A stretch of 41,896 bases of DNA, from NCBI GenBank assembly GCA_015233145.1, contig JADFYI010000008.1, positions 14,356-56,251 on the forward strand, in the 5' to 3' direction. Both the position numbers and the translations under genes were made by a program. Shown here in pieces: positions 13,326-34,025 of this stretch. The stretch's first letter is position 1. Each line of letters starts with the position of its first letter. Under the pieces are notes generated by a model. The model was not told where the DNA came from and did not search any database. It saw only the letters and a program-made list of their open reading frames with translations. The stretch comes from Candidatus Omnitrophota bacterium (GTDB lineage: Bacteria > Omnitrophota > Gorgyraeia > Zapsychrales > Fredricksoniimonadaceae).

Positions 13326-13356
13326 AAAAGCTTGATAAAAAGGAAAGGGGAAAAAT

Positions 13357-13656: not shown

Positions 13657-13660
13657 TTCT

Positions 13661-13963
13661 ATGCGCCCATGTTCTCGCACCATTGACAGGCCTTTGTTGA
13701 TCCTCGGACTCGAGGGAGAAGATGTCGCTGTTCTCATGCTTTTGTGCGGTATTCCAGCTGTTCTTTTTTCTCCGGCGATCCCTGTGATTGGCTTATTGAT
13801 TGTCTGGCCGCTTTTGGCAGCGTTCAAACGCGGGAAACCTGAAGGGTATGTATTGCATTTTCTCTATAGCCTGGGAATGTCGCTTCGCGGACTTTTACCG
13901 CCTCAAACAAAAATTAGATATTCGCCGTATCCTCGAAATAAGGAAGAAAAAAGGAAAAACTGA
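13661..13963 (+). CDS. traL: TraL-like T4SS protein
   Basis: A 100-residue protein. It has the TraL/VirB3 pattern: a short N-terminus with IDRPLLILGLEGED, two adjacent hydrophobic helices (about 23-55), then a conserved-looking KRGKPEGYVLHFLYSLGM and a basic tail. TraL is the VirB3 equivalent at the inner membrane, working with the TraC ATPase. The ATG at 13661 is preferred over a GTG-type start overlapping the pilin gene. It starts 4 bases after the pilin stop and overlaps traE by one base. Confidence 0.82.
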   Translation: MRPCSRTIDRPLLILGLEGEDVAVLMLLCGIPAVLFSPAIPVIGLLIVWPLLAAFKRGKPEGYVLHFLYSLGMSLRGLLPPQTKIRYSPYPRNKEEKRKN

Positions 13964-15280: not shown

Positions 15281-16476
15281 AAGATTTCTTAGATAAGTTT
15301 AAAGACAACATTTCCAATTTTCGCGAAATGAAAAAAAGCGAACAGCAGGCTTTTTTTGTCAAAGTGATTGGTTTAGGGGCGGTTGCCATTATTGCCGCGT
15401 TTTTTTTATTTTCAACGGGAACGCCTCAAAACAAAACAAAAAAAGCCGCAACGGCCTCATCACAAGAAAAAGTTAAAACAGTTTCTGTCAAAGACGATAA
15501 CGGGCTTTTAGGCGAGGAGATCGACCGCAAGGCATACGTGGAGCGGCTTGAAAGCCAGTATTATGCGGTTTCAGAAAAGAACGAGGAATTGGAAGGGCAT
15601 TTAAAAGAGTTGACCGGTAAGCTTGGCGAAATGAGTAAGGTGCAGTCCAAACTCGTGGAAAGCCTGGCCACAACAGATGCGCGGCTCCTTGAAACGGCCA
15701 AGGCTGCGGCAGACGCTCGCGCTGTTGGGGAGAAAAAGTCAGAGGGGGAAAGCCCGGCCGTTGATCCGGCGCGGTATCGCCTGGAGGTTATCAATTTAAA
15801 TCCGCTTGATCCTAAAAATCCGAAAACAGTTTATCTTCCGGCGGGAAGTTTTGTGCGCGGCACTCTTTTAACAGGCGTGTATGCGCCTTCGGATCAGGGG
15901 AATCCTCTTCCTGTTCTTATTCGGCTAAATGAGGCGTTTTATGGGCCCAATGAAACGCGGATTCCTTTGGAAGGCTCTTTTGTCATCGGGAAGGCGTCAG
16001 GAGATCTTACCAGTGAACGGGCGCTTATTCAAATTACAACACTTTCTTCAGTCCTTCCGTCAGGCGAAGCGTTTGAACAGAGGGGGAATATCGGATACAT
16101 CACAGATACTTATGGCCAATTAGGGCTTAAGGGAATAGTGGTCAGAAATACCGGCAAACAGCTGGCGATGGCGTTTATGAGCGGGTTTGTCGGCGGTGGG
16201 TCAGAAGCGCTGGCAGACTCTGAAACAACAACAGTCGAAGGGCAGTATGGAACTTTACGCCGGAATGTGACAGGAGATGTGTCGCGTCATGCAGGTTTCT
16301 CAGGCCTTGCTCAAAGCGCAGCGCAGCTTTCCAAATATTATATGGACCAGCTGGAAAAAATTGTTCCTGCCGTCAAGGTTGACGCGGGGGTTGAGGTTTA
16401 TCTCATTGTTTTAGAAGGGGTCAAAGTCTATGGACTTACGAAAGACGATTCCAATCGCATTCGTGATCTTGATTAA
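15277..16476 (+). CDS. traB: TraB-like (VirB10-type) T4SS protein
   Basis: A 399-residue protein. One transmembrane helix (about residues 29-47) is followed by a linker, a coiled coil (about 85-150, YVERLESQYYAVSEKNEELE onward) and a VirB10/TraB beta-barrel domain. The barrel shows VYLPAGSFVRGTLLTGVYAP and RIPLEGSFVIGKASGDL, with a C-terminal helical antenna-like segment around GKQLAMAFMSGFVGGGSEA. VirB10 proteins span both membranes and link inner and outer complexes. F TraB is about 475 residues, so this is slightly short. The next gene begins 47 bases before its stop. Confidence 0.88.
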   Translation: MKDFLDKFKDNISNFREMKKSEQQAFFVKVIGLGAVAIIAAFFLFSTGTPQNKTKKAATASSQEKVKTVSVKDDNGLLGEEIDRKAYVERLESQYYAVSEKNEELEGHLKELTGKLGEMSKVQSKLVESLATTDARLLETAKAAADARAVGEKKSEGESPAVDPARYRLEVINLNPLDPKNPKTVYLPAGSFVRGTLLTGVYAPSDQGNPLPVLIRLNEAFYGPNETRIPLEGSFVIGKASGDLTSERALIQITTLSSVLPSGEAFEQRGNIGYITDTYGQLGLKGIVVRNTGKQLAMAFMSGFVGGGSEALADSETTTVEGQYGTLRRNVTGDVSRHAGFSGLAQSAAQLSKYYMDQLEKIVPAVKVDAGVEVYLIVLEGVKVYGLTKDDSNRIRDLD

Positions 16477-16846
16477 CATGTGGCCCAATGTAAGCCACGC
16501 TGAAAAAAGAAAAGAGCCGGATGACAGCAAGGTCAAAACGTTTGCAGAGACTTATCGGCGTTCCAAAGAAGCTAAATTGCCGGATATTTCTTCGAATCCA
16601 GCAGGGCTTTTTCAGATGGCCCCTCAAATGGGGTATGTGAAGCCTTATTTGCCAGTCATGGTTCCGCCGCGCGTGGTTAAAGTGTGGATTCCGGCACATA
16701 CCGTGAGCGGGGATAAAGACGTCCTGGTCGCTGGACACTGGACATTTGTCATGGTGGAAGAGCCAGGCTGGTATATCAAAAATGAACTTTCTCTTAAAAT
16801 GACGGCTGAGGTCATTGTGCCGTCCCTCCCAAGGATAAGCCGATGA
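16430..16846 (+). CDS. Exported protein in the TraV position, PAH-motif family
   Basis: A 138-residue protein with a signal peptide (first about 24 residues, ending NVSHA) and no cysteine near the cleavage site, so it is not an obvious lipoprotein. The C-terminal half has a beta-rich module with VVKVWIPAHTVSG followed by GHWTFVMVEEPGWYIKN. A similar module occurs in the lipoprotein encoded just after traC (19355-19807): VVxxVxVPAHxxxG ... V ... PGxW. In F-type clusters traV, the VirB7 equivalent, lies between traB and traC, so this protein may replace it. AAGGGG precedes the ATG; the overlap with traB and with traC (ATGA) shows coupling. Function inferred from place only. Confidence 0.6.
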   Translation: MDLRKTIPIAFVILINMWPNVSHAEKRKEPDDSKVKTFAETYRRSKEAKLPDISSNPAGLFQMAPQMGYVKPYLPVMVPPRVVKVWIPAHTVSGDKDVLVAGHWTFVMVEEPGWYIKNELSLKMTAEVIVPSLPRISR

Positions 16847-19368
16847 CAAGAGTTAAGACTGAAGATATGAAGCGTATTTTCGACGAAAAGCTTTCGCTGG
16901 TCGATTATCTTCCGTATGGCGAATATGTTGACGGGGTATTTTTAAATGTTGACGGGAGCCTGGGGCGCGTCTGGGAGTTAACGCCATTTGAGTCTGAACT
17001 CGCGGGAGAGGCCGGGCTTAAAGAAATGTCCAACGCGGCATCAGGGTTGGTAGGGAGTTTAAGCAAAGAGTTTCAGTGTCAGATGATCCTTTTTTGTGAC
17101 AGTGAAGTGGCGCCCGCGCTTTTGGATTATCAGAAACGCTCTTCAGGCAGCGATAACCTGATTGTGAATGCTGTTATTGACGGCAAGGTTCGCCATATTC
17201 TTGAGGCGAATAATCAAAAGAATCAGGGTGAGAATGTGATGCCCCGCAGGATCCGGGTCTTTTTTACGGTCAAAATGACACCCCATTGGATTTCTCCATC
17301 AGCGGGAAGCGGATTTTTAGAGTATTTTTCAAATGGAAAAATTATCAGCGATCGAATCGCAGCGGAATGGCGGCGCCATCGAGAAGATTTTTTAAGGGCT
17401 GTTGAATCTGTGGAAAATCGTCTTTCAGCATTTCGAATTCCCCATACCGCTTTAAATAAAGAAGCACTGGCGCGTCTTTTATACAGGTTTTTAAATCCTG
17501 TCCGTGCGCGCAGCATCCCCAAGACGCCGGCAGGAGATGATTTTATCCGCGAAGGCGTTCTTTACCATGCCCCTGAAGCCCGTGGGGAAGGGTTTGTTTT
17601 AGATGGCTGGCATACGCGTGTTGTAAGTTTGAAAGAACTTCCCAGCCAAACGCTGACAGGCATGTTCAGCACGGAGACTTTGGCAGGCGGAAGCAAGTGC
17701 CTCGTGGATATTCTCAGTGATTTTGTTTTTGTCCTTAATTTTGTTGTCCCTGATCAGAGTGAAGCGCTTGAAAGGCTTAAGTTTCAAAAGACATTTGCTT
17801 TTATGCAGCGTTCAGGCTCCTCGGGAGATGTAAGCGAGGAGGCGGTCTATAAAAAAGAAGAACTGAGCGCTGTTATTTCCGAAACATTCAAAAGCGGCCA
17901 GCCCATAGTTTATACCAGGGCGCATTTTGTTCTTTTAAGCGCCAGTGAGCATGACGTAGAGCGGGCCTGCGATTCCCTTTTAAGCGCGCTTCATGGTTAT
18001 GGTGCCGAAGGCTTGAAAGAAGAGATCATTGCGCCGTCTTTATTTTTGACATGTCTTCCTTTAAATTTTGACTTTGGCCTGGAAAACTTTATCAAGCGCA
18101 CCAAAAGGCTTTTGTGCGACAACTTTGCCGACATGCTTCCTTTATACGGTTCGTTTCACGGTACGCCCACACCCGCGGCATTGTATTTAAACCGCCGCGG
18201 AGAGCCTGTGTTTGTTGATTTCTTTGATTCTGAAACAAATCCACATGGCGTTATTATCGGCGCCTCGGGTGCCGGAAAATCATTTTTAACCAATGATTTT
18301 ATTTATCAAAACTACAGGCTGGGATCGCGCTTTTTCGTTCTGGATAAAGGCAATTCCTATCAGAAAACCTGCGAAATATTGAGCGGCCAGTATATTGCCT
18401 TTGATATGGCAAAGCCTTTAACGATTAATCCGTTTTTCCGCACCCCTTCCAATGAGAATCTGGCATTTTTGATTGAGGTACTATCACTTATGGCTTCCGG
18501 CGGAGATGACCGCGATCGTTTGACGCGGGAAGAAAAAGGCTTTTTACAGCTTGCGGCCATTGAAACCTATGACAGAAAGCCATTGGGGGAAGTTGTTTTA
18601 AGTGATCTTGTGGCAGTGTTGAATGACGAAGCTTTCGCTGCGCTCAAGAATGCGCGCGCCGGTATGGGGCCGGGGCTGGCTCTTCGTTTGGCCTCATTTA
18701 CCAAAAATGGCCAATTTGGCGAGTTTTTTGACGGCCCCAATCAATTTGATGTCGAAGGGCGGTTTACAGTTTTTGAGCTTGGGAATTTAAGTGCGTATCC
18801 TGATTTGCAGCTGGTTGTGCTTCTGAACGTCATGTTTTTTATTACTCAATTTGTGGCAGCTCCTGAAGCGCGAGGGGAAAGGAAGTTTCTTTTGATTGAT
18901 GAGGCCTGGCAGTTACTCAAGATGAGTAACACGGCGGAGTTTATTACCAATGCGTTTAAAACTTTCCGCAAGTACCGCTGTTCTGCCGTGGCGGTAACGC
19001 AGGAAGTGGCTGACCTTCTTCAGCAGAAAAGCGGGCTGGCTATTTTAGCAAACAGTGCCAACAAGATTTTTTTAAAGCAGGAGCCGGCGCTGATTGACCG
19101 GCTAAAGGCTGAGCTTTCCTTCACTGATCAAATTGCAGCCTCTTTAAAAAGCGTGCGTACGGTCAAGGGCAAGTATTCCGAGGCGCTTGTGTTGACAAGT
19201 TCATCATCGGGTGTCGCAAGGCTTGTGCCGGACCCGTTTCTTTATTGGGTTGCGACAAGCGATGCGAAAGATAACGAATATTTAAACGAAGCCAAGCGCG
19301 CGAGCAATGGGGACCTTCTCGCGGCGCTGGCGCATTGCGCAAAGGAGCATCCGTATGGAGTTCGATAA
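16843..19368 (+). CDS. traC: TraC/VirB4-like T4SS ATPase
   Basis: An 841-residue cytoplasmic ATPase, close to the 875 of F TraC. The N-terminal TraC domain starts with DYLPYGEYVDGVFLNVDGS. Walker A (GASGAGKSFLTNDF) is at about residues 473-486 and Walker B (FLLIDEAWQLLK) at about 682-693. A glutamine of AVTQEVADL and the C-terminal VirB4 region with FLKQEPALIDRL follow. VirB4 ATPases energise pilus assembly and substrate transfer and are a defining marker of T4SS. The start at 16843 overlaps the previous stop and has AAGGAT upstream. All motifs are intact, so this machine looks functional. Confidence 0.95.
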   Translation: MTRVKTEDMKRIFDEKLSLVDYLPYGEYVDGVFLNVDGSLGRVWELTPFESELAGEAGLKEMSNAASGLVGSLSKEFQCQMILFCDSEVAPALLDYQKRSSGSDNLIVNAVIDGKVRHILEANNQKNQGENVMPRRIRVFFTVKMTPHWISPSAGSGFLEYFSNGKIISDRIAAEWRRHREDFLRAVESVENRLSAFRIPHTALNKEALARLLYRFLNPVRARSIPKTPAGDDFIREGVLYHAPEARGEGFVLDGWHTRVVSLKELPSQTLTGMFSTETLAGGSKCLVDILSDFVFVLNFVVPDQSEALERLKFQKTFAFMQRSGSSGDVSEEAVYKKEELSAVISETFKSGQPIVYTRAHFVLLSASEHDVERACDSLLSALHGYGAEGLKEEIIAPSLFLTCLPLNFDFGLENFIKRTKRLLCDNFADMLPLYGSFHGTPTPAALYLNRRGEPVFVDFFDSETNPHGVIIGASGAGKSFLTNDFIYQNYRLGSRFFVLDKGNSYQKTCEILSGQYIAFDMAKPLTINPFFRTPSNENLAFLIEVLSLMASGGDDRDRLTREEKGFLQLAAIETYDRKPLGEVVLSDLVAVLNDEAFAALKNARAGMGPGLALRLASFTKNGQFGEFFDGPNQFDVEGRFTVFELGNLSAYPDLQLVVLLNVMFFITQFVAAPEARGERKFLLIDEAWQLLKMSNTAEFITNAFKTFRKYRCSAVAVTQEVADLLQQKSGLAILANSANKIFLKQEPALIDRLKAELSFTDQIAASLKSVRTVKGKYSEALVLTSSSSGVARLVPDPFLYWVATSDAKDNEYLNEAKRASNGDLLAALAHCAKEHPYGVR

Positions 19369-19807
19369 GACAGGAAAGTTTATGGCCGTTACCTTCATAA
19401 TTTCAGGATTTCTTTCAGGCTGTGTTGCCTCTCAGGCCGCGACCGAAAAAATTTCTTCAACGTCGATTTATGAAGAAGGCTACCGCAAGGGCGTTTCGGA
19501 AAATCTGGGCGCGATGGTCGAGAAGTTAAATGGCAATGATTTCCCTTATATTGCCGGAACCTGGTCGGCTCCTGTTGTTCAGGAGGTAAGCGTTCCTGCG
19601 CACGTTCATGGAGGAATTTTTTACCCCGAACATAATGAGCTTGTGATCATTACTCCCGGCGAGTGGAAGCGCAATGCCGCGTTTCCGATTTCTTCTAATC
19701 GAGATAAAAATATTCCGATAGAAAACAAGGCGGTCAGGGTTGAGGCGCCTGTTGTTGATATTACATCGCTTCCTTCACAAAACGGGAAGCCATCCAAAGG
19801 AGAATAG
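19355..19807 (+). CDS. Small lipoprotein between the T4SS and pilus blocks, PAH-motif family
   Basis: A 150-residue protein with a lipobox (FLSGC, cysteine at about residue 23) after a hydrophobic segment, so it should be an outer membrane lipoprotein. The start at 19355 is chosen for AAAGGAG 7 bases upstream; an earlier in-frame ATG lies deep inside traC. The central region has VVQEVSVPAHVHGG then LVIITPGEWKRN, resembling the protein encoded just before traC. It could be the TraV/VirB7 equivalent of the T4SS, a PilL-like or pilotin-type lipoprotein of the following secretin, or a physical link between the two machines. The lipobox is seen; the role is inferred. Confidence 0.65.
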   Translation: MEFDKTGKFMAVTFIISGFLSGCVASQAATEKISSTSIYEEGYRKGVSENLGAMVEKLNGNDFPYIAGTWSAPVVQEVSVPAHVHGGIFYPEHNELVIITPGEWKRNAAFPISSNRDKNIPIENKAVRVEAPVVDITSLPSQNGKPSKGE

Positions 19808-19809
19808 CC

Positions 19810-21411
19810 ATGCGCTCAGTTCATGTGTTTTTAATTTTTGGGGTCTTCCTTTTGACCTGGTCTTGTGCGCATGCCGAGGAATCGTCATCGCTCAAAAAAG
19901 AAGATATTGTGAAAGAAGAATGGGCCAAAGCAGCTTTTCCCAAGACTTCTTTTTATGCGCCGTCTTCATCATCTATTGAGGAAAAGGTGATGAGCGAGAA
20001 GCCTTTGCCTGTCAGTGTTCGCGCTCCGATTGAAGATGAAAAGGCCGGAGCCATGACAACGCCAAAGATTACGGAAAAAGATTTACCAGCGGAATTGGAT
20101 AAAACAATGACGCTTTCCGGAAGAATGAAGCTTAAAACCGCCTTGAAACTGTGCGCGGTGTCAGCTGGAAAAAGCCTTCTTTTGGGAGCCGGCGTTGAAG
20201 ACAGGGATGTGTCTGCAGATTTTGTGAACATGGCCATTTGGCGTGCGCTCAACACCCTTCTTTATCCATCAGGGTATGGTTTTAAGATTAATGGCCCTGA
20301 TCTTGTGATTTTGGCACGCGAAACCCGTGTTTTTCGTTTAAACCTTCCGCCGGTAACGCAAAGTTTTAATAATTCAACAACCAACGAAAGCACAACCGGA
20401 GGGACAGGGGAATCCCAAAATTTAAACCATCAGACAAATTCAAGCAATGGCGGACGTGTCAGGGTTGGCGCCAAAATCACGGTAGAAAACAAGTCTGAAA
20501 ATATCTCTTTTTGGGACGATATCGAAAGGAACGTCAAAATCATCCTTTCTCCCAGAGGCGCATTTACCCTTAATCGCGCGGCAGGAGTTGTTGTGGCTGA
20601 GGATGATCCGGGGAGCCTTGAACGGTTAGCTGCATTTTTTACGGAAATGAATTCCCGTGTTTCGGCGCAGATCATGGCCGATGTTAAGGTTTTGGAAGTT
20701 GAGCTTAATCATGAACACCGCCTTGGCATTGACTGGGCGGCGCTCATGAATAAAGGCAGTTTGAAAGGAGTTAATTTTACAACGAATTTTGCATCAGAAA
20801 ACTTTTCGTCAGGAAATGTGATGACCCTGACAGGTTCTGTTGGAAAAACCGGGGCCGGGACAACAGCGGATGGTGTCGGGGCAGTGATAAAGGCCCTGGA
20901 AGAAATGGGACGGGTGGAAGTGGTGTCTCAGCCGCGGGTTGTGATGCTTAACAATGCGGTTGCGAATATCCAGGTGGGTGAGACGCGTTCCTATGTTGAT
21001 AGCGCGTCAACGGAGACTACTACCTCTGGCGGAACAATAACCACAGCGACATTAAGTGAGGTTCACGGCGGGGTAACGTTACAGATTGTGGGCAATATTT
21101 CCGGGGATGATATTTTCTTGAGTGTAACGCCTGTGGTGAGCGCCATTGATGATATCCGTTCGATTTCTCTGGGGCAGGGCAACAAGCTGGAAGCTCCTGA
21201 AACTTCCATGAAGTCTATGTCAACGCTGGTGAAGGTTAAAAATGGGGAAACCGTGGCCATTGGCGGGCTTATTACGCGCAATCGTACCAAGAATGTTTCC
21301 GGCGTTCCGATTTTGTCACACATCCCGATTATCGGAAAAGCCTTTTCTTACGAGACGCGCAAGGATAACAGAACCGAGCTTGTGGTGTTTATTACACCGA
21401 GGAAGGGATAA
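19810..21411 (+). CDS. pilN: PilN-type secretin of a type IVb pilus
   Basis: A 533-residue secretin with a signal peptide ending near CAHAE; a cysteine there could allow lipidation, as in R64 PilN, but the lipobox is poor. N-domains follow, with a Ser/Thr/Asn-rich linker (about 190-215), then a segment beginning around WDDIERNVKIILS. VVVAEDDPGSLERLAAFF matches the region preceding the channel in PilN-family secretins. The secretin domain (about 290-533) shows VVSQPRVVMLNN, VKVKNGETVAIGGLI and the signature VPILSHIPIIGKAFS, and ends in ELVVFITPR. It should form the outer membrane pore. AAAGGAG lies upstream of the ATG, 2 bases after the lipoprotein stop. Confidence 0.92.
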   Translation: MRSVHVFLIFGVFLLTWSCAHAEESSSLKKEDIVKEEWAKAAFPKTSFYAPSSSSIEEKVMSEKPLPVSVRAPIEDEKAGAMTTPKITEKDLPAELDKTMTLSGRMKLKTALKLCAVSAGKSLLLGAGVEDRDVSADFVNMAIWRALNTLLYPSGYGFKINGPDLVILARETRVFRLNLPPVTQSFNNSTTNESTTGGTGESQNLNHQTNSSNGGRVRVGAKITVENKSENISFWDDIERNVKIILSPRGAFTLNRAAGVVVAEDDPGSLERLAAFFTEMNSRVSAQIMADVKVLEVELNHEHRLGIDWAALMNKGSLKGVNFTTNFASENFSSGNVMTLTGSVGKTGAGTTADGVGAVIKALEEMGRVEVVSQPRVVMLNNAVANIQVGETRSYVDSASTETTTSGGTITTATLSEVHGGVTLQIVGNISGDDIFLSVTPVVSAIDDIRSISLGQGNKLEAPETSMKSMSTLVKVKNGETVAIGGLITRNRTKNVSGVPILSHIPIIGKAFSYETRKDNRTELVVFITPRKG

Positions 21412-21413
21412 GT

Positions 21414-22622
21414 ATGAGTGTTTATCTTTTTCAGAACGGAAGTATTTATTTTGAGCGTAACGGAAAATTGGAGCGTATCAAAGAAGAAGCCTTTCTTTTT
21501 TCGGATAATGCCAAAGATTCTTCGGTTCAGGTGATGGTCGCGGAAACAATTTTTAAGCGCGTTGATATCCTTTTATCGCAAATGAAAAGGCGCGATGAAA
21601 TTTTTAATGCCCAGTTTTCTGATGAGTTTGCGGTTCAGGATGAAAAACTTAAAAACGGCGTTTTTCAGTTGATGGCGGCCAGCGCCGCAAGGCTGCGCGC
21701 GATCGCGCGCGTATTTCCGATAAAAACTATCAAAAGCTGCGTGCCTTATGCCTTGGCTGTCAGGGCTCTTTTGTTATCCCGAGGCATTATCAACGAGGAT
21801 CGTTTTGTTTTTTACATTGATGATTTGGGAGATAAAACGCTTTTGACTGTTTTTCGCAGCGATGAAGTTGTTGAAACGCGCGCTCTTCTCAAAATTGATC
21901 CCGCTCAAATTTTGGAAGAAGTTTTTCGCAGTGAAAAAAAATTATTTGATAAGTCCGTGTCTGACACAGGGACATGCGTGATTGCTTCCAATGCCCCCGG
22001 GGTGATTGAAGCCCTGCGTGCGATTGATGATAAGACCCATGAAGGTGTCCTTATTGACGGCAATTGCCCGGTTTTTGATGCGTTTAAGAGCGCAAGGTTC
22101 CTTGTTCATTTTATGCTTCCTGAGGATATTTTTGCGGTTAGAAAAGAAAAGGAACAGCGCCAGAAAATAACAGCTTTTTTTATAGCGTTTATGTTTATTT
22201 TTATCGGACTAGGGGTCAGGGCAGTGGCTGTGTCAAAGGCGCAGGGCCATGAGCGGGCGTTACAGGCTCTTAAAGCGCAACATGTCATCAGTCTTCGAAA
22301 ATTAAATATTATGAGCGCTTTGACTTATCAGGATCGGCTGAGGCACAGGGGCAAAGATAATCTTGTAAGACTTTTTCATGCTTTTCTCTGGAATTTACCT
22401 GCTGAAGGAAAAGTCGAGAGTTTCCTTTGGGAGCGCGGCAAAGATGAGCGGGCAGGGTTTAGCGCAGTTGTCTCTTCCCGAAATGCGGGCGACTTGTCGT
22501 TTGGAATGAAGGGTCTTTTTGCCAGCCGCCGGGTTGTCCCTGTTTTTGAACGTGGCAGGCCTGCGCTGCGTGTTTCTATTGAATCTTCCGGTCAGGACAT
22601 GAAAGGGGAGGACATGCCATGA
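21414..22622 (+). CDS. PilO2/GspL-like bitopic pilus assembly protein
   Basis: A 402-residue protein. It has a cytoplasmic N-terminal domain of about 245 residues, one transmembrane helix (about 250-268, ITAFFIAFMFIFIGLGVRA) and a periplasmic domain of about 130 residues. This topology is shared by type IVb PilO2, BfpC and type II GspL proteins, where an actin-like cytoplasmic domain contacts the ATPase. Placement directly after the secretin copies the pilN-pilO-pilP order of R64-type thin pilus operons. Sequence motifs are weak, so the call is from topology and synteny. It starts 2 bases after the secretin stop and overlaps the next gene (ATGA). Confidence 0.7.
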   Translation: MSVYLFQNGSIYFERNGKLERIKEEAFLFSDNAKDSSVQVMVAETIFKRVDILLSQMKRRDEIFNAQFSDEFAVQDEKLKNGVFQLMAASAARLRAIARVFPIKTIKSCVPYALAVRALLLSRGIINEDRFVFYIDDLGDKTLLTVFRSDEVVETRALLKIDPAQILEEVFRSEKKLFDKSVSDTGTCVIASNAPGVIEALRAIDDKTHEGVLIDGNCPVFDAFKSARFLVHFMLPEDIFAVRKEKEQRQKITAFFIAFMFIFIGLGVRAVAVSKAQGHERALQALKAQHVISLRKLNIMSALTYQDRLRHRGKDNLVRLFHAFLWNLPAEGKVESFLWERGKDERAGFSAVVSSRNAGDLSFGMKGLFASRRVVPVFERGRPALRVSIESSGQDMKGEDMP

Positions 22623-23110
22623 GGCAGGTCATTATTTCTTTCGGGATTATCTTGGGCTTATGGTCCGCGCTGTCAGCAGGACATGTTATTAAAAATTCTC
22701 AGCGACTGGAGCATGAAATAGCCCGGCTTCAACATGAAATTTTTTTGGAGGAAAACGAAGCCGCGTATTTAAAAAGTTTTTCTCAAATGCCGCCGATCCC
22801 GCTTCTTGTTTCATATCGCCAGTCATTAAAAGATTTTGACGCCATATCCAGAGCCTGCCGCGTGAAGGGGCTGGTAAACATTAAAACTTCATTTCAAGGT
22901 GAAATTTCTTCGGCTATACGGCCATCTTTTATGAAAGGTTTGCATGAATTACCCATTGAGGTCGTCTTTAGCGGTGTTAATTCAGGTGCTGCCTTAGGGT
23001 CTCTTTTAGAAGGCATTTCTGCGATGGAACATGTTGGTCCGTATATTTTACGACGGATTTATCATGCGGGGGATAGTTTGGTCTGCCAACTGGATGTTAT
23101 TGGGATTTGA
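22619..23110 (+). CDS. PilO/GspM-like small inner membrane pilus protein
   Basis: A 163-residue protein with an N-terminal transmembrane helix (about residues 3-20). A short coiled coil follows (about 24-50, LEHEIARLQHEIFLEENEAA), then a compact domain ending in LRRIYHAGDSLVCQLDVIGI. The pattern helix, coiled coil and ferredoxin-like fold is that of PilO/GspM/PilN alignment-complex proteins. The ATG overlaps the previous stop and has GGGGAGG about 9 bases upstream. It probably pairs with the preceding bitopic protein to connect the ATPase/platform to the secretin. No closer homology is recognised. Confidence 0.6.
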   Translation: MRQVIISFGIILGLWSALSAGHVIKNSQRLEHEIARLQHEIFLEENEAAYLKSFSQMPPIPLLVSYRQSLKDFDAISRACRVKGLVNIKTSFQGEISSAIRPSFMKGLHELPIEVVFSGVNSGAALGSLLEGISAMEHVGPYILRRIYHAGDSLVCQLDVIGI

Positions 23111-23124
23111 AGGAGGAATAAATT

Positions 23125-23592
23125 ATGCGTGTTTTATTGTTGTTTTTTGGGATGGTTTTTATTTTTACGCCTTGCGGCGCCAGAGCGGAAAGCTCGTCTC
23201 AGGCACAAGAAGTTCATGGCGAAAAGCCGCTTTTGGAAATGCGAAATTTTATGGAAACAGAACGGCACAAACAAGAGGAACTAACGCTTTTAGAACTGGA
23301 TTTGGAGAAGCTTAAAGTTGAGGTTGAAAGGAAAAAGGCGTTATCCGCACTTTCTGATTTTTCAATGGGCTCCGGGAACTCTCCCTCAAAAGATGCAGTT
23401 TCCCCAAGGCCGGAGCTGGCATTTGTATTTTTAAGCGGGGAAGACAAAGAGGCTGTGTTCAATTGCGATGGTGTTGAGCGTCATTTTAAAGAGGGCGAGA
23501 GCGTAGGAAACGAGACTTTGAAAAAAATTACTTCTCAGGGAGTGGTTTTGGTTTCTCGTGATGGGCAAGAAAAAACAGTAGCGGTGAAATAA
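23125..23592 (+). CDS. PilP-like periplasmic pilus protein
   Basis: A 155-residue exported protein with a signal peptide (about residues 1-21, ending ARAES). A charged, probably coiled, stretch follows (about 40-75), then a C-terminal beta domain: FVFLSGEDKEAVFNCDGVER, FKEGESVGNETLKKITSQGV and a final VLVSRDGQEKTVAVK. This small beta-sandwich with a G-rich turn and VxLxxxGxExxL end matches the homology region of PilP/GspC proteins that bind the secretin N-domains. AAGGAGG lies 6-7 bases before the ATG. Position between the PilO-like gene and the ATPase agrees with R64 pilO-pilP-pilQ order. Confidence 0.72.
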   Translation: MRVLLLFFGMVFIFTPCGARAESSSQAQEVHGEKPLLEMRNFMETERHKQEELTLLELDLEKLKVEVERKKALSALSDFSMGSGNSPSKDAVSPRPELAFVFLSGEDKEAVFNCDGVERHFKEGESVGNETLKKITSQGVVLVSRDGQEKTVAVK

Positions 23593-25223
23593 TGAAAACC
23601 GAACGACTTGGTTCCATTTTGATAAAAAAAGGTTTTCTCTCGGCCGATGATCTTGATTTTTGCCTTGCGGTTCAATCTTCTTCCCGCGGCAAGGGGGGCG
23701 AAGAGCGGCTGGGGCATATTTTGGTTCATTATAATCTGGCGCGTGAAGAGGATGTGGCGCGGGCTTTAAGCGAGCAGGTCGGCTGGCCATTTTATGATGG
23801 AGAGTATGTTCTTAATGCCGAGGGCGCAAGGCTTATCGGGAGCGTGATGAAAGAGGGGATGATTTTTCCGGCCACGGTTGAGGATGACCTTGTTTTTGTG
23901 GTTGCCGACCCCTATGACACGCGCATAAGCGATCATGTCGCACAGCTTTCTTCGGGTGGGGCAAGTTTTTGCGTAGGCCGGGCAAGCGCCGTATCTGCTG
24001 CTGCGGCTTTAATAGCAAATCCAGAGTGGGACAATTGTTGTTTTTCTTCATCGAGTTTTGGCCAGCCGGTTAAGGATGTTCATTCTTTGGCTTTTGGGCT
24101 TCTGGAAGCCGCGGCAGGGATGAACGCCACGGATATTCATATCGAGCCTTCGGAAAAGGCTGTGGAAATCCGTTTTCGCATTGATGGGCTTTTAAGGTTT
24201 CATTCTTCTTTGGCGCTCGAAGATTTGCCACGGCTTGTAAATATCTTTTTTCATAAAGCGGAAATCAGCCCCGGAGATTTCTTACGTTTTCACGACGCGC
24301 GTTTTGAGCACGGTTTGCGCAGTCAGAGCCTGGATATCAGGCTTTCCCATATCCCAACGGTTAACGGTTCTTCTCTGGTTTTAAGGATTTTAGATAAAGC
24401 CCGTTCAGCGCTTTCTTTGGAAAATTTGGGTTATGCGCCGGAACACTGGCAAAAAATTCTTCATGCCATCCGTCATCCTCATGGCATGGTGCTTTTAACC
24501 GGGCCTACGGGCTGCGGAAAAACCACAAGCCTTTATTCGATGCTGAATTATTTAAAGAGCATTTCCACCAAGATCGTTACGGTCGAAGATCCGGTGGAAA
24601 TGCGCATTCCGCTTGCGGCCCAGGCCGCGGTGGATTTAAAAAAGGGGCATGATTTTTCCTCTGTAACGCGCGCGTTTTTACGCCACGACCCGGACATTAT
24701 GCTCATCGGCGAAATTCGCGATGAGATGACTGCGCGTGAGGCTGTAAGAGCCGCTATTACGGGGCATAAAATATTTTCGACCCTTCATACCAATGACACG
24801 GCGAGTGCTGTTTTGCGCCTGCACGATTTGGGCGTTCATAACAGCTATATCGCCAACACCCTTTTGTGTGTTGTGGCCCAGAGGCTTGTGCGTAAACTTT
24901 GCCCCTTTTGCCGGGAAGCGTATGAGGTGCGTGTGGGAGATGCGGATGAATTTGAACGCGCTTATTTAACGGAACCCTTGCAAAAAGTCTTCCGGCCGCG
25001 CGGGTGTGCACATTGTTTTGACGGACATCACAACCGGACGGTTGTCGCTGAAATACTGTTTGTTGATGATGAAATCAGATTTCTGATTGAACAGGGCCTG
25101 GTTAATGAAATAACCCTCCGGCTTAAGGCCAGAAAAAATCATATTACTATGCGTAACGATGCGGCGCGCCTTGTGCGGGAAGGCATTATTTCGCTTGAAG
25201 AAGCGATAAGGGTGGTGGGCTGA
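23592..25223 (+). CDS. GspE/PilB-type pilus assembly ATPase (PilQ of R64-like systems)
   Basis: A 543-residue secretion ATPase. It has an N-terminal MshEN-like domain (GSILIKKGFLSADDLDF ... VGWPFYDGE), IHIEPSEKAVEIRFRIDG, Walker A GPTGCGKTTSLY (about residues 305-316) and an Asp box with VTVEDPVE. Walker B (DPDIMLIGEIRD) is followed by the His box GHKIFSTLHTND. A tetracysteine zinc site (CPFC near 437 and CAHC near 472) is intact, as in assembly-type rather than retraction-type ATPases. It powers pilin polymerisation. The start overlaps the PilP-like stop by one base and lacks a strong ribosome binding site, suggesting translational coupling. Confidence 0.95.
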   Translation: MKTERLGSILIKKGFLSADDLDFCLAVQSSSRGKGGEERLGHILVHYNLAREEDVARALSEQVGWPFYDGEYVLNAEGARLIGSVMKEGMIFPATVEDDLVFVVADPYDTRISDHVAQLSSGGASFCVGRASAVSAAAALIANPEWDNCCFSSSSFGQPVKDVHSLAFGLLEAAAGMNATDIHIEPSEKAVEIRFRIDGLLRFHSSLALEDLPRLVNIFFHKAEISPGDFLRFHDARFEHGLRSQSLDIRLSHIPTVNGSSLVLRILDKARSALSLENLGYAPEHWQKILHAIRHPHGMVLLTGPTGCGKTTSLYSMLNYLKSISTKIVTVEDPVEMRIPLAAQAAVDLKKGHDFSSVTRAFLRHDPDIMLIGEIRDEMTAREAVRAAITGHKIFSTLHTNDTASAVLRLHDLGVHNSYIANTLLCVVAQRLVRKLCPFCREAYEVRVGDADEFERAYLTEPLQKVFRPRGCAHCFDGHHNRTVVAEILFVDDEIRFLIEQGLVNEITLRLKARKNHITMRNDAARLVREGIISLEEAIRVVG

Positions 25224-26416
25224 TGAATTGGCGGTATAAGGCGTTTAACAGAATGGCGCGTGAAGTGGCGGGAATTGAGGCTGGCGCGAGAAAAGAAGTT
25301 CTGGCGCGTTTGAAAAGCCGGGGCCTCGCCGTTATTTCCCTGTATCCTGATTTTTATGGCTGGGCAGTTTCTTTGATGACAAAAAAACAGGTTTCGTCAA
25401 AACAGCTTTCTCTTTTTTTTCAGGATTTTGCCAATATGCTTTCTGCCGGGATAAGCCTTAAAAACTCTTTTTTTGCCTTGGAAGAAACCTCCTGTTGCAG
25501 TGAGCTTGCTTTGGTGTGCAGAAATGCGGTTGGTGACATTGAGAGCGGAAAGGGATTAGCCGAGGCTTTTTCAAGCAGTTCTGTTTTTCCTAAAATTTCG
25601 TTAACTGCCCTAAGCGCAGGGGAACGTTCAGGCAATATCCCGCAGGTGATGGAACTTTTGAGTAAACATTACAAGGTTTTGGCTGATATCAGGAGAAGAA
25701 TGCTCGGGAGCCTGGGATATCCCGCAGTTGTCTTTTGTGTTTTGACAGGTGCCGTTGTTTATGCCTCGGTTGCGGTCATTCCGCAGCTCGAGCCGCTTCT
25801 TCCTCGAGGAGCCATGGAGGGAGGATTGACACGGATTTTAGTGGGATTCAGCCATGTGCTTCAAACAGAATGGCCCCTGGTTTTAGGAGGTTTGGCATTA
25901 TTAGCAGGCGGCGCTGTTTTTTGGGCTAAAAAAGATCCCACTTTCTTTGCGGGGCTGGCGAGCCATTTTCCGTTCATTGGCCCGGCGCAGAAAGACCTGG
26001 AACTCAGCATGATTTTTTTCAATCTTTATGTGCTTCAAAAAAGCGGGATCCCGCTTGAAATGGCTTTGCAGGAAACGCTCGCGGGTGTCGGAGTTGAGGC
26101 AGGGGCTCATTTAGAAGAGTGCCGCAGGTTTCTTGCCGGGGGGCTTACTTTGTCTGAGGCCCTGGGCAGGGATGAATATTTTCCGCGCATTGTGGCGGAT
26201 ACTGTCCGTATCGGCGAAGAAACAGGGCGGTATGACGAATATTTCGAGAGGGTTTTTCATCATTTTTACAGGTCGTTTCAAACAAGGATGGATGTTTTAT
26301 CCTCAGCGCTGCATCCTGCGCTTTTGTGCGTGAGTGCGGTTTTGATTGCCTCGTTTGCTTTGGGGTTCTTGAAGCCCATTTACGCGAATTTAACAAATGT
26401 TGGTGTTTTAAGGTAA
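25223..26416 (+). CDS. GspF/PilC-type inner membrane platform protein (PilR of R64-like systems)
   Basis: A 397-residue protein with two GspF domains. The first contains QLSLFFQDFANMLSAGISLK and LSAGERSGNIPQVMELLSKHY, then a double membrane segment around LGYPAVVFCVLTGAVVYASV. The second contains FFNLYVLQKSGIPLEMALQ and RIGEETGRYDEYFERV, with a final transmembrane helix (about 370-390). These are the canonical motifs of the pilus/type II secretion platform. It overlaps the ATPase gene by one base (TGATG). Length is normal. It should be the rotor on which pilins are assembled. Confidence 0.93.
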   Translation: MNWRYKAFNRMAREVAGIEAGARKEVLARLKSRGLAVISLYPDFYGWAVSLMTKKQVSSKQLSLFFQDFANMLSAGISLKNSFFALEETSCCSELALVCRNAVGDIESGKGLAEAFSSSSVFPKISLTALSAGERSGNIPQVMELLSKHYKVLADIRRRMLGSLGYPAVVFCVLTGAVVYASVAVIPQLEPLLPRGAMEGGLTRILVGFSHVLQTEWPLVLGGLALLAGGAVFWAKKDPTFFAGLASHFPFIGPAQKDLELSMIFFNLYVLQKSGIPLEMALQETLAGVGVEAGAHLEECRRFLAGGLTLSEALGRDEYFPRIVADTVRIGEETGRYDEYFERVFHHFYRSFQTRMDVLSSALHPALLCVSAVLIASFALGFLKPIYANLTNVGVLR

Positions 26417-26869: not shown

Positions 26870-27354
26870 AAAATAATTTAAGTTTGCTTTGGCAACGTTT
26901 TTCTAATTCCAAAGGCTTTGGGCTTTTGGAGTTGTCTTTGGCGGTTCTTCTTGCGGGCATTTTTTTTAGTGTTATCGCAGCCGCAGGGCAGGGAATCGCT
27001 TTTTCGGCCAAGGGACAACGCACGGCACAAGAAATGTCATCCCTACTGGAGATGTCTTATCAGTATCGGCTCCAAAAAGGCGAGTGGCCTAAAACGCTTG
27101 CGGACATGAAAGATGTATTTTCTAATGTTCCGTTAAAGAACTTTTGGGGCCAGGCATTTGTTTTAGGCGGAAATGAAATGCGCGCATGGGTGGAGACAGA
27201 TGTTCCGGTAAAAGCTGTTTCTGCCTTTTCCGGGCAGATGTTTACTGTTGTCAGAAACAGCAACAGCTTTACAACAGTGAGGGGCTCTCAAAATATTTCT
27301 TACGGGAAAGTGGCGAGGCTGGCTTATGAGAGGGCGCATGGGGATAAAAAATAA
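26851..27354 (+). CDS. Minor prepilin-like protein with a long leader
   Basis: A 167-residue protein with a leader of about 22 residues ending NSKG before FGLLELSLAVLLAGIFFSV, giving E5 and a 20-residue hydrophobic helix. The head has the pattern SSLLEMSYQYRLQKGEWP, also seen in the third pilin (SQLEEAARVYYIKKNSWP), so the two are related. The leader is longer than in the other two pilins and more type IVb-like. The gene overlaps the preceding pilin by 19 bases with no clear ribosome binding site, so it is probably coupled and expressed at a lower level. A minor or initiating pilin is the likely role. Confidence 0.8.
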   Translation: MDSDVLENNLSLLWQRFSNSKGFGLLELSLAVLLAGIFFSVIAAAGQGIAFSAKGQRTAQEMSSLLEMSYQYRLQKGEWPKTLADMKDVFSNVPLKNFWGQAFVLGGNEMRAWVETDVPVKAVSAFSGQMFTVVRNSNSFTTVRGSQNISYGKVARLAYERAHGDKK

Positions 27355-28249
27355 AGGATTCTCTTTGCTTGAGCTGTCGATGGTTTTCATGCTCATGGCC
27401 GTGATCGGCGGGGCCGTAATTCCAAACTTTTTAAAGTCAGTCCATATTGAGGCCGCAAAGAAAACCGCGCTTGAGATGTCGCAGCTCGAGGAGGCGGCAC
27501 GGGTGTATTACATTAAGAAAAATTCCTGGCCCGATACTTTAAAAACCCTTCAGGATGCGGAATTTTTGGATGAGAAATGGGATGGTCAGAATCCTTTTGG
27601 CAGCGCGTATGTTTTTTCTATTAACGGCTCTGTCTTTACCGTGAAGACTGAAATGCCGCAGGACATGACAACAGTTACAGCCGCGTTGCTTCCCATGTCA
27701 AGCGCGAATGGCAAGGAAGTCTCATCTGATGTTACGATTCCCGGGGCCGATAGCCAGGGAATGCCCGCGGGCGCCATTATGCCCTGGACTTCAGTCACCC
27801 CGCCGTCCGGCTGGCTCATTTGTGATGGCCGCTCGGTTTTGCGCACCGATTACCCGGCTCTTTTTGCGGTCATCGATGTAAGGTACGGCAGCGGCGATGG
27901 GACAACAACATTTAATGTCCCTGATTTGCGCGGAAAGTTTCTCGCGGGCCTGGATGCGACACAAACAGAATTTAATTCTATCGGCAAAGCCGGTGGCTCG
28001 ACAACAATTGATATTTCGCACACTCATGCCATAAGCCGCGGGGGGTATATGTCACACAATCGCACCGGAGATTCTGTTGGAGATGGCTATTATTCGGTAG
28101 GTTATATTGCCATAACAACACCGAATTGGGATTGGGGTGGGGCTTCAGGGTTTGGGCTGGATAGTGATATTAACACCGCCAATGTTGTGAATCCTTTAAG
28201 AACGATTTTGAACCCCTACTCAACAGTCAATTGGATTATTAAAACGTAA
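27326..28249 (+). CDS. Pilin-Tail Collar fusion, candidate pilus-tip adhesin (PilV-like position)
   Basis: A 307-residue protein (303 if the ATG at 27338 is used). The leader ends KNKG before FSLLELSMVFMLMAVIGG, a type IV pilin N-terminus with E5, and a pilin-like head follows to about residue 130. From about residue 150 the sequence becomes a phage Tail Collar domain: GAIMPWTSVTPPSGWLICDG, YPALFAVIDVRYGSGDG and FNVPDLRGKFLAGLD, as in tail-fibre and microcystin-dependent-protein families. The C-terminus is glycine/tyrosine rich and ends YSTVNWIIKT, like tail-fibre tips. In R64 the last pilin-like gene (pilV) encodes the tip adhesin that recognises recipient cells; this protein holds the same place. 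It overlaps the preceding pilin gene by 29 bases. Confidence 0.88.
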   Translation: MRGRMGIKNKGFSLLELSMVFMLMAVIGGAVIPNFLKSVHIEAAKKTALEMSQLEEAARVYYIKKNSWPDTLKTLQDAEFLDEKWDGQNPFGSAYVFSINGSVFTVKTEMPQDMTTVTAALLPMSSANGKEVSSDVTIPGADSQGMPAGAIMPWTSVTPPSGWLICDGRSVLRTDYPALFAVIDVRYGSGDGTTTFNVPDLRGKFLAGLDATQTEFNSIGKAGGSTTIDISHTHAISRGGYMSHNRTGDSVGDGYYSVGYIAITTPNWDWGGASGFGLDSDINTANVVNPLRTILNPYSTVNWIIKT

Positions 28250-31595: not shown

Positions 31596-31766
31596 ATGGG
31601 CCGTATTGGTTTTTCAGAACTTCTTCTTATTTTGATCGTGGTGCTTCTTCTTTTCGGAGCTAAGCGTTTGCCGGAGATCGGCGCTTCATTAGGCAAGGCC
31701 ATCCGCGAGTTTCAATTAGCTTTGAAGGGCGAGAAATCCGATGACCAGGGAACTCCCAAGTCCTAA
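31596..31766 (+). CDS. tatA: Twin-arginine translocase subunit TatA/E
   Basis: A 56-residue protein. A short N-terminus GRIGFSELL leads into one transmembrane helix, then the conserved [20 protein letters not shown] with the FG hinge and amphipathic helix of TatA/E, and a short polar tail. TatA forms the size-variable pore of the twin-arginine pathway that exports folded proteins. AAAGGAG lies about 7 bases upstream. It overlaps tatC by 26 bases. There is no separate TatB, so this is a minimal TatAC system in which TatA may cover both roles. Confidence 0.92.
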
Positions 31767-32454
31767 GGCTGACCTTTCTTTTTGGGGACATCTTGAAGAA
31801 TTGCGCGGGCGGATTTTAAAGATCGCTGTGTTTTATGTGATCGCCTGCTGTCTTTTTTATCCCGAAGCCCAAACAGCTTTGGGATACCTTATTGCTCCCG
31901 TCGGAAAACTTATTTTTACTTCACCTGGCGATGCCTTCTGTGCTTTTTGGAATGTGGTTCTGGGGGGTGGGGCTCTTTTGTCAGTGCCGTATATCCTTTA
32001 TCACATCTGGAGCTTTATTGCCGAAGGATTAACCGAAGAGGAAAAAAAGCTCGTGTTTTTTTACGGGCTTTTATCGTTTGTCCTTTTTTTGTTGGGCGCT
32101 GTGTTTGCGTTTTATGTGATTATGCCCATGGCGCTTCAGTTTTTCTTAAGTTATCAAACCCCGCAGATAACGGCGTTTATTTCGGTTGATAAATACATGT
32201 CGTTTTTGTTTTCCTGGGTGATAGACGCAGGACTGGCTTTTGAAACCCCGCTTTTTATTTTTGTGCTGGCCCGTTTTGGCATTGTGACGCCGGAATTTTT
32301 TGCCCAAAAAAGGCGTTATGCAATTGTGATTATCCTCATTATTGCCGCGATTTTGACCCCGCCGGATGTTGTCTCTCAAATCCTTTTGGCCGCGCCTATG
32401 CTGATCCTCTATGAGTTGGGGATTATTTTTGCGAAGATGGGGAGAAAAAAGTAA
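31741..32454 (+). CDS. tatC: Twin-arginine translocase subunit TatC
   Basis: A 237-residue membrane protein with six transmembrane segments. The conserved [13 protein letters not shown] is at the N-terminus, the glutamate-containing [14 protein letters not shown] is in the first periplasmic/cytoplasmic turn, and later segments include [18 protein letters not shown] and [22 protein letters not shown]. TatC recognises the twin-arginine signal. Length is standard. The start lies inside tatA in another frame. A shared hairpin follows the stop directly. Confidence 0.95.
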
Positions 32455-32480
32455 AACCCCCTGCCTGCGGCAGAGGGTTT
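32454..32480 (-). terminator. Hairpin between tatC and the first mini-gene
   Basis: Twelve-base arms at 32454-32465 and 32469-32480 with a 3-base loop. On the minus strand the single imperfect position is a G.U wobble, while on the plus strand it is a C-A mismatch, so it is more stable as a terminator of the minus-strand gene. T-rich sequence follows on the minus strand. It may also stop tatC transcripts. Confidence 0.6.
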
Positions 32481-32502: not shown

Positions 32503-32583
32503 TTATTTCTTCTTTTTTGCTTTCTTAGCAGGAGCTTTTTTAGAAGCTTTCTTGGTGCATTTTTTCATTGAACAGCAAGGCAT
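32503..32583 (-). CDS. Lysine-rich mini-protein 1 (26 residues)
   Basis: A tiny ORF encoding 26 residues: an MPCCSMKKCT head with three cysteines, then a Lys/Ala/Pro tail ending KKKK. It has AAAGGAG 8 bases before its ATG, a promoter candidate (32609-32637) and a terminator directly after the stop, so the unit is complete. The tail resembles the C-terminus of histone H1-like bacterial proteins. The cysteine head could bind metal. It is clearly related to the second mini-gene, sharing the tail pattern and the ribosome-binding-site context GGAGAAxATCACAT. Role unknown; nucleic acid or ribosome binding is the simplest guess. Confidence 0.65.
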   Translation of the reverse strand: MPCCSMKKCTKKASKKAPAKKAKKKK

Positions 32584-32608
32584 GTGATTTTCTCCTTTCC
32601 AGGTTAAG

Positions 32609-32637
32609 ATCTTATTCTATCCGAATGCTTTGAGCAA
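32609..32637 (-). promoter_or_regulatory. Promoter candidate of mini-gene 1
   Basis: On the minus strand TTGCTC (32637-32632), a 17-base spacer and TAAGAT (32614-32609), about 25 bases before the mini-gene ATG. The -35 touches the long inverted repeat upstream. Confidence 0.4.
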
Positions 32638-32686
32638 CTCCTAAGACCCCGGCAGCCTGTTCGGCTGCCAGGTGGCCTTAGGAGTT
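32636..32686. repeat. Long hairpin-forming inverted repeat between the mini-genes
   Basis: Outer arms AACTCCTAAG (32636-32645) and its exact complement (32677-32686), inner arms GGCAGCC (32651-32657) and GGCTGCC (32663-32669) around a TGTTC loop; the bases between can pair partly. This gives a nearly continuous stem of about 20 bp. On the + strand it is followed by TATTTTTC. It could be a terminator, a repeat element or part of a small RNA. Confidence 0.65.
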
Positions 32687-32710
32687 ATTTTTCAAGAATC
32701 CTTGAAAAAT
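32687..32710. repeat. Perfect 10-bp inverted repeat abutting the long hairpin
   Basis: ATTTTTCAAG (32687-32696), loop AATC, then the exact complement CTTGAAAAAT (32701-32710). It directly adjoins the preceding hairpin and lies just downstream (minus strand) of the terminator of mini-gene 2. Confidence 0.65.
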
Positions 32711-32716
32711 AAACAA

Positions 32717-32737
32717 CCCCCCGCGTGAGGCGGAGGG
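32717..32737 (-). terminator. Terminator hairpin of mini-gene 2
   Basis: Eight-base arms at 32717-32724 and 32730-32737. As with the hairpin after mini-gene 1, the one imperfect pair is a wobble on the minus strand and a mismatch on the plus strand, so it fits minus-strand termination; TTGTTTATTTTTC follows. Confidence 0.6.
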
Positions 32738-32760
32738 CCATTTACAAGACGATAAAAATC

Positions 32761-32820
32761 TTATTTCTTCTTCTTTTTGCCTTTTTTCACAGGAGCTTTC
32801 TTTTTGGCTTTTTTCGCCAT
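32761..32820 (-). CDS. Lysine-rich mini-protein 2 (19 residues)
   Basis: A tiny ORF of 19 residues, MAKKAKKKAPVKKGKKKKK, with 13 lysines. AAAGGAG lies 9 bases before the ATG, a good minus-strand promoter is at 32862-32889, and a terminator hairpin follows the stop, so it looks like a genuine short gene. It is a shorter relative of mini-protein 1 without the cysteine head. It is too short for ordinary gene callers. A nucleic-acid-binding, histone-tail-like role is likely from charge alone, but this is inference. Confidence 0.65.
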   Translation of the reverse strand: MAKKAKKKAPVKKGKKKKK

Positions 32821-32860
32821 GATGTGATTCTCCTTTCTGAATTTGCGTTTACTATATATG

Positions 32861-32889
32861 TATAATAGCACTGTGTTAGAATGATTCAA
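32861..32889. promoter_or_regulatory. Overlapping divergent promoters (mini-gene 2 and hemW)
   Basis: Minus strand: TTGAAT (32889-32884), a 16-base spacer and TATTAT (32867-32862). Plus strand: a perfect TATAAT at 32861-32866, with only a weak -35 (TGAATT at 32838) upstream. The two -10 boxes occupy the same bases, so polymerase can bind for only one direction at a time. Confidence 0.5.
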
Positions 32890-32921: not shown

Positions 32922-34025
32922 ATGACTCCTTCACTTTATATCCATATTCCTTTTTGTGAAAAAAAGTGCCCCTTTTGTTCATTTGCGGTCGCGGCATCGC
33001 AGATGAACCGCTGTGACGAGTATATCGGCGCGCTGGAAAAAGAGGCTTTGAGCTTTAAAGGCACACCGGTGATGAGCGTTTACGTGGGGGGCGGAACGCC
33101 CTCGTGCCTGTCATTGGCTCAGATGGAGCGGCTGTGGGCTGTGATTGCCGGAAATTTTTGTTTCTCTTCGGATTGTGAAAAAACTTTTGAGGCCAACCCG
33201 GAAAGCATGGACCCGGAAAAGGCGCGGCTTCTTAAAAGTTTGGGCATTAACCGGGTCAGTTTGGGGTTGCAGTCCATGAACGATGAGCGCTTGAAATATC
33301 TTGGCCGCGGGCATAATGTTTTTAAGGCCAAAGAAGCTTTCAAAACTCTGCGTTCCGCCGGATTTAAAAATTTGAATGTGGATTTGATGTACGGCTTTCC
33401 CGGCCAAACGCCGGAAGAGCTTGATGCTGATTTTCGAAAGATCACGGCTCTGGGAAGCGAGCATTTATCAATTTATAATCTTACCATCGAGAAAAAAAGC
33501 CTTTTTTATGTGCAAAAAAAGAGCGTTGATAACGAGACCCAAGGCAGGCTTTATGAGCTTATTTTGCGCCGGGCGCATCAGGAAAGTTTTTTTCAGTATG
33601 AGGTCAGTAATTTTTCCCGCCAGGGATTTGAGTCGCGCCATAACCTGAATTATTGGCAGGGTGGAGAATATATCGGCTTGGGCGTTGCCGCGCATTCGCA
33701 TCTAGAGGGCCGGCGGCGTTGGAACGTTGACACTCTTCCTTTATATTTAGCGGCTATGCGGGATACCAAGAGTGCTATGGCCGGCAGTGAAGAATTGTTG
33801 CCTGGTGATAAATTTATGGAGACTTTTCTTTTTGGATTAAGAATGAATTCCGGCGTTGACCTTTATGCGCTTGAGCGTAGAATGAAAGTGAAGTTCCCCG
33901 AAGGCAAAAGCGATGAGCTGGGAAGCCTTATTGAGGCGGGATTCCTTGAAGAGGACGGCCCTGTGGTTCGTGTTACAGACAAGGGGCGTTTGGTTTTGGA
34001 TGAAATATCTGCAAGACTGATCTGA
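32922..34025 (+). CDS. hemW: HemW-like radical SAM protein
   Basis: A 367-residue radical SAM protein. IHIPFCEKKCPFCSF near the N-terminus gives the CxxxCxxC cluster (residues 12, 16, 19). YVGGGTPSCLSLAQMERL, RVSLGLQSMNDERLKYLGRGH and NVDLMYGFPGQTPEEL are all family signatures, and the C-terminal HemN domain has SNFSRQGFESRHNLNYWQGG and LGVAAHSH. HemW is a heme chaperone once annotated as coproporphyrinogen III oxidase. Its short length and C-terminal region fit HemW better than HemN. No Shine-Dalgarno is visible before the ATG. Confidence 0.9.
   Translation: MTPSLYIHIPFCEKKCPFCSFAVAASQMNRCDEYIGALEKEALSFKGTPVMSVYVGGGTPSCLSLAQMERLWAVIAGNFCFSSDCEKTFEANPESMDPEKARLLKSLGINRVSLGLQSMNDERLKYLGRGHNVFKAKEAFKTLRSAGFKNLNVDLMYGFPGQTPEELDADFRKITALGSEHLSIYNLTIEKKSLFYVQKKSVDNETQGRLYELILRRAHQESFFQYEVSNFSRQGFESRHNLNYWQGGEYIGLGVAAHSHLEGRRRWNVDTLPLYLAAMRDTKSAMAGSEELLPGDKFMETFLFGLRMNSGVDLYALERRMKVKFPEGKSDELGSLIEAGFLEEDGPVVRVTDKGRLVLDEISARLI

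Follow-up and report, generated by a model that had tools for sequence, protein, structure and literature searches.

Very small lysine-rich genes beside hemW in an order of Omnitrophota, with a possible role in nucleic acid compaction

Between tatC and hemW of an Omnitrophota genome the minus strand carries two reading frames so short that ordinary gene finders would pass over them. Are such frames genes and, if they are, what could peptides made up largely of lysine do in the cell? The window, by which we mean the whole stretch of DNA analysed (41,896 nucleotides), comes from a draft genome of 1.8 Mb which is 80% complete. The features of the locus are the following:

31741..32454, plus strand: tatC, the convergent neighbour (Pfam PF00902, TIGR00945)
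32444..32480, minus strand: intrinsic terminator of gene C, hairpin and T-rich stretch, back to back with tatC
32503..32583, minus strand: mini-gene C, 26 aa with a three-cysteine head, MPCCSMKKCTKKASKKAPAKKAKKKK
32592..32600, minus strand: Shine-Dalgarno sequence of gene C, GGAAAGGAG, 9 nt
32637..32722, minus strand: dispersed two-hairpin repeat between genes A and C, outside the mini-gene system
32706..32740, minus strand: intrinsic terminator of gene A, hairpin and T-rich stretch
32761..32820, minus strand: mini-gene A, 19 aa, MAKKAKKKAPVKKGKKKKK; counterparts in the corresponding place upstream of hemW at 47 of 62 loci
32830..32838, minus strand: Shine-Dalgarno sequence of gene A, AGAAAGGAG, 9 nt
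32862..32889, minus strand: gene A promoter of the extended -10 type, TTGAAT-16-TATTAT with TGC before the -10
32922..34025, plus strand: hemW, divergent to the mini-genes and the anchor of the scan below (296 bits to the NCBIfam equivalog TIGR00539, cut-off 205)

Two complete short genes thus lie on the minus strand in the stretch that separates tatC from hemW. The leader of gene A reads AGAAAGGAG-AATCACATC-ATG and is matched by that of gene C, GGAAAGGAG-AAAATCAC-ATG. Each gene is followed by a G+C-rich hairpin and then a T-rich stretch, the hairpin of gene C being common to it and the convergent tatC. A preliminary description of this DNA had reported the two frames of 19 and 26 residues, a three-cysteine head on one of them, the matching leaders and the terminators, and in all of this it was right. 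It had also given both genes a promoter candidate. This holds for gene A; the candidate of gene C is weak, having TTGCTC with either TAGAAT just 12 nt away or TAAGAT at 17 nt.

Could the frames have arisen by chance? Because circularity had to be avoided, hemW and not the peptides was used as the anchor. In 81 genomes of the same order the DNA upstream of hemW was scanned for frames of 10-46 codons starting with ATG, GTG or TTG, preceded by a Shine-Dalgarno sequence and containing at least 35% lysine; loci were counted where 300 nt or more of this DNA was present, which left 62. A qualifying mini-gene was found in 47 of them, always on the strand opposite to hemW and starting 74-518 nt from it. 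Dinucleotide shuffles predict 0.175 per 62 loci, the other strand of the same loci gave 1 of 62, and the same scan of 119 kb of other DNA from the phylum gave zero matches. A pattern scan across the family never gave more than one KKK-stop copy in a genome; almost all of the copies lay at the hemW locus, and the reversed control pattern had zero matches. It should be noted that the pattern used across the phylum, AAAGGAG..ATGNCNNNNAARAAR, is unspecific, longer genes beginning likewise, and served to locate loci only. Genes A and C are almost certainly real genes, and the family of tiny genes to which they belong spans an order of Omnitrophota, adjoining hemW. The preliminary description had held chance to be unlikely, and in this it was right. 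Other lineages of Omnitrophota have similar genes after rsfS (family f38), between the gene of an HD-domain protein and uvrA (f27) and near panB (f57).

Among the apparent negatives six were variants which the cut-offs had missed, and five of these are longer than the mini-genes: L331 (49 aa), L358 (73), L318 (82), L353 (83) and L351 (109); the sixth, L313, has 16 aa and is richer in arginine. With the variants included, a family member is present in 53 of the 62 hemW loci, and some of the remaining loci (L138, L116) have a member located elsewhere. The long forms consist of tandem KKKAT, KKKVA or KRKAT units (a KKK-xx repeat), have the same composition and spacing as the mini-peptides and end in the same type of stop-proximal terminator, AACCCTC...GAGGGTT-T. 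The mini-genes thus stand at the lower end of the size range of a single family, which varies in length from 12 to 109 aa at one syntenic locus. A search of PDB sequences with the 109-aa form returned a collagen chain as its sole match (E 0.066).

Two types of mini-peptide can be distinguished. The plain ones, type A (49 distinct sequences of 12-39 aa), contain 56.9% K, 20.3% A, 8.9% V, 8.3% T, 2.5% R and 2.3% P. The Cys-headed ones, type C (17 distinct), contain 44.8% K, 11.0% C and 9.4% S. Taken together the two types have one acidic residue and zero aromatics, and their basic residues come in runs of 2-3 separated by spacers of mostly 2 residues. Profile searches of the mini-peptides against Pfam and NCBIfam gave zero matches, as did an Rfam scan and a tRNA scan.

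Cys-headed copies occur in 13 other genomes as well, and the motif CCxSKKC of this partner is kept in several genera. The heads read ACCSSKKC, PCCSMKKC and SCCSTKKC in the family to which the window belongs; a different family within the order has AGCCCSSKK and GCCCSSKKK, and KCGAKRK is found in the second gene of a pair in f38. Several genera of the window's family have a plain and a Cys-headed copy, in either order, which makes the duplication suggested earlier plausible for them; the rest of the order mostly has a single copy.

What selection has kept is the protein. In protein-guided alignments of same-genus pairs the differences at codon positions 1, 2 and 3 number 80, 84 and 320 (320 of 484 at the third), and in ungapped pairs of equal length 71, 82 and 274 (274 of 427); the pairs have common ancestry, so that these counts are not independent events, but their direction is beyond doubt. 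The two lysine codons are used about equally (AAA 378, AAG 369), and at shared lysines there are 127 synonymous AAA/AAG switches vs 46 replacements of lysine. Third-position bias and synonymous change are thus both found, as in a protein-coding gene. The preliminary description had asked whether lysine-codon variation is synonymous among relatives, which it is, and had named as the outcome pointing to an RNA that the frames are lost while hairpins persist; it is the frames that are conserved.

The expression signals are of one kind across the family. Of 46 type-A genes 42 are preceded by an extended -10 (TGnTAn[TA]AT), compared with 2.6% in shuffles, and in most of them TTTGCA is found at exactly 17 nt from it; a TTGACA/TATAAT scorer barely separated the genes from shuffles, whereas the extended -10 did. 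The Shine-Dalgarno sequences measure 8-10 nt, and the longest anti-Shine-Dalgarno match averages 8.8 nt vs 4.9 nt for 29 genes of the window. Terminators follow 58 of 68 family members where about 4 are expected. The extended -10, the long Shine-Dalgarno sequence and the terminators together make abundant single-gene mRNAs likely, and judged by these signals the mini-genes are probably strongly expressed single-gene units. Few conserved protein genes of bacteria with a full set of expression signals are this short. Their length lies below the usual limit of gene callers, and their peptides would vanish in tryptic proteomics.

The reading we favour, and consider rather probable on the evidence of sequence, is that the family encodes disordered lysine-rich polycations which neutralise or compact nucleic acid across this order of Omnitrophota. 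Lysines in clusters of 2-3 that recur every 4-5 residues, with near-zero acidic and no aromatic residues, would bind phosphate backbones irrespective of sequence, and by such binding the peptides would neutralise and compact the nucleic acid. The target would most likely be chromosomal DNA, possibly RNA, although the sequence features point to no single one among DNA, RNA, polyphosphate and membrane. A peptide of 12 aa is expected to bind DNA weakly, so its abundance would have to be high. The Cys-headed copy would probably add cross-linking through disulfides or metal, a guess from its motif.

The histone-like protein HU bears on this proposal. In 28 relatives HU stands by itself, measures about 90 aa and bears no lysine tail, and no fusion of the HU fold (PF00216) to such a repeat was found among them; the genome of the window itself, which is 80% complete, yielded no HU. 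Since HU has no lysine tail here, the function of the tail may be supplied by a separate protein, and the mini-peptides could be what supplies it.

Which known proteins do the peptides resemble? One of the closest likenesses is to Hc2/HctB of Chlamydia (PF07382, NF038052), which also has lysine-rich pentamers with Ala/Val/Thr/Pro spacers and varies strongly in length. The forms of 49-109 aa have the tandem pentamers of Hc2, with basic runs of 3 and 2-residue spacers, and the minis have 2-3 such units. Hc2 differs in being 165-237 aa long with a C-terminal domain of its own, compared with 12-109 aa for the family here, and we know of no Cys-headed partner of Hc2. Membership of Pfam HC2 (PF07382) was rejected: the best scores are 17.7 bits (L358), 14.1 (L331) and 8.0 (L318) against a gathering threshold of 40, the minis have zero matches, and the matches of the long forms are compositional. 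Hc2 binds DNA, has a higher affinity for RNA than Hc1 and varies in its number of lysine-rich pentamers (PMC2848022). BpH1, the Burkholderia-type histone H1-like protein (NF038053), is likewise a free-standing lysine-rich repeat of variable length, but has 182-206 aa in Bordetella pertussis (PMC2848022); membership of NF038053 was also rejected (best 12 bits, cut-off 80). The C-terminal KPAA domains of AlgP and PhaF are disordered Lys/Ala/Pro repeats too; those, however, are tails on larger proteins, whereas here the repeat makes up the entire protein. Isolated KPAA repeat peptides bind DNA in vitro, and AlgP with its H1-like Lys/Ala/Pro repeat binds DNA and associates with polyphosphate granules (PMC9239181). 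The mini-peptides would then be minimal-sized proteins acting in the manner of the repeat domains of chlamydial Hc2 and BpH1 or of the KPAA tail of AlgP. The preliminary description had called them histone-tail-like, which suits a type A composition of 57% K and 20% A and relatives at the corresponding place whose Hc2/H1-like lysine repeats reach 49-109 aa. Similarity of low-complexity sequence does not, however, establish common descent with Hc2, BpH1 or AlgP. Protamines are very short and highly basic, at times with cross-linking cysteines, and they are arginine-rich and eukaryotic; the mini-peptides are similar to them in size and basicity, and homology is not claimed.

A wider proposal, which we put forward tentatively and hold to be a little short of an even chance, is that Omnitrophota have a class of micro-nucleoid proteins. 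These would be lysine-rich, 12-26 residues long and encoded by single genes, with a Cys-headed partner possibly making compaction responsive to redox or metal, with HU tailless, and with gain and loss of repeats tuning the length from 2-3 units to about 20. If this holds the class is previously undescribed, its kind, the lysine-rich histone-like polycation, being already known; new here are the size, the order-wide synteny, the Cys-headed partner and the length series, and the genes are under-described. A search of one collection of papers found none naming Omnitrophota together with lysine-rich proteins, and a survey of prokaryotic histones names the phylum only for IHF histones, which are unrelated to the mini-genes (PMC11390915). 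Should the peptides indeed pack nucleic acid, they would offer a natural length series for asking how short a lysine-rich tail can be, and would suggest how a phylum of ultra-small cells handles the charge of its chromosome; Omnitrophota cells are reported to be mostly ultra-small, about 0.2 um (PMC10066038).

Other functions have to be weighed against nucleic acid compaction. The peptides could be small basic proteins which associate with the ribosome or bind rRNA, being in size and charge like bTHX or the eukaryotic eL41. They are tiny and basic and have the strong Shine-Dalgarno sequence expected of abundant proteins, and in f38 the gene which a mini-gene follows, rsfS, codes for the ribosomal silencing factor. 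The spread of 12-109 aa at one locus is at variance with the fixed contacts of ribosomal proteins, the neighbours elsewhere are others (uvrA, panB) and the minis match no Pfam or NCBIfam profile. We regard this function as unlikely, and the ribosome association named as an option in the preliminary description found no support here. Slightly less likely still is that the peptides bind polyphosphate or some other polyanion and organise granules as AlgP does. AlgP, itself H1-like, combines granule association with DNA binding (PMC9239181), but no polyphosphate gene is adjacent and the minis do not have the helical N-terminal domain of AlgP.

An antimicrobial or secreted effector peptide seems very improbable. 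The positive charge is high, the Cys form MGCCCSSKKK (G215) resembles a eukaryotic lipidation motif, and Omnitrophota are reported to have host-dependent traits (PMC10066038). Against this the peptides have no hydrophobic face, aromatic residue, signal or leader, and conservation at a single locus throughout an order is unlike bacteriocins. The position of a Lys-rich, Cys-containing short frame next to a radical SAM gene raises the thought of an attenuator leader peptide, or of a RiPP precursor matured by that neighbour; this is more improbable again. With a terminator of its own and a convergent tatC, the mini-gene has no downstream gene to attenuate, hemW being divergent; the radical SAM neighbour is HemW itself, above the TIGR00539 equivalog cut-off, and not a dedicated maturase; and outside this order the neighbours differ. 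That a small RNA is what has been conserved, its frame being incidental, as a short transcript with promoter and terminator might suggest, is in effect already refuted by the strong third-position bias, the interchange of AAA/AAG and TGC/TGT, the Shine-Dalgarno sequence at every copy, the in-frame expansion of repeats and the constant composition.

Some further observations concern the window and its surroundings. The large hairpin between genes A and C is an unrelated dispersed repeat and not the conserved unit. It is the window's copy (intergenic, 32637-32722) of a palindromic two-hairpin element of about 80 bp, which has copies in seven other loci and is found in many genomic places (16 matches, some of them a copy already counted, read on the opposite strand). 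An alignment of seven copies yields 32 consensus pairs, of which 19 show compensatory changes, and the element has no match in Rfam. Lys/Ala micro-frames led by a Shine-Dalgarno sequence also occur as look-alikes in other phyla; the matches listed include seven such loci, and among them are Acidobacteria, Gammaproteobacteria, Brocadiales and one Thermoplasmatota archaeal MAG. L100 and L101 encode (1516-1788) proteins of 89-90 aa with two KVAKVG(V/I)K...GDISCAKM repeats, one cysteine per repeat and a lysine-rich tail. Elsewhere in the window, positions 12075-26416 hold TraL, TraE, TrbI-like and TraC genes of F-type conjugation-like character, and a secretin, a T2SS/type IV pilus ATPase and T2SSF belong to the same run, which suggests a hybrid pilus or secretion locus. 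At 27326-28249 a pilin-like N-terminus (GFSLLELSMVF) is joined with PF07484, a phage tail collar domain (E 3e-23).
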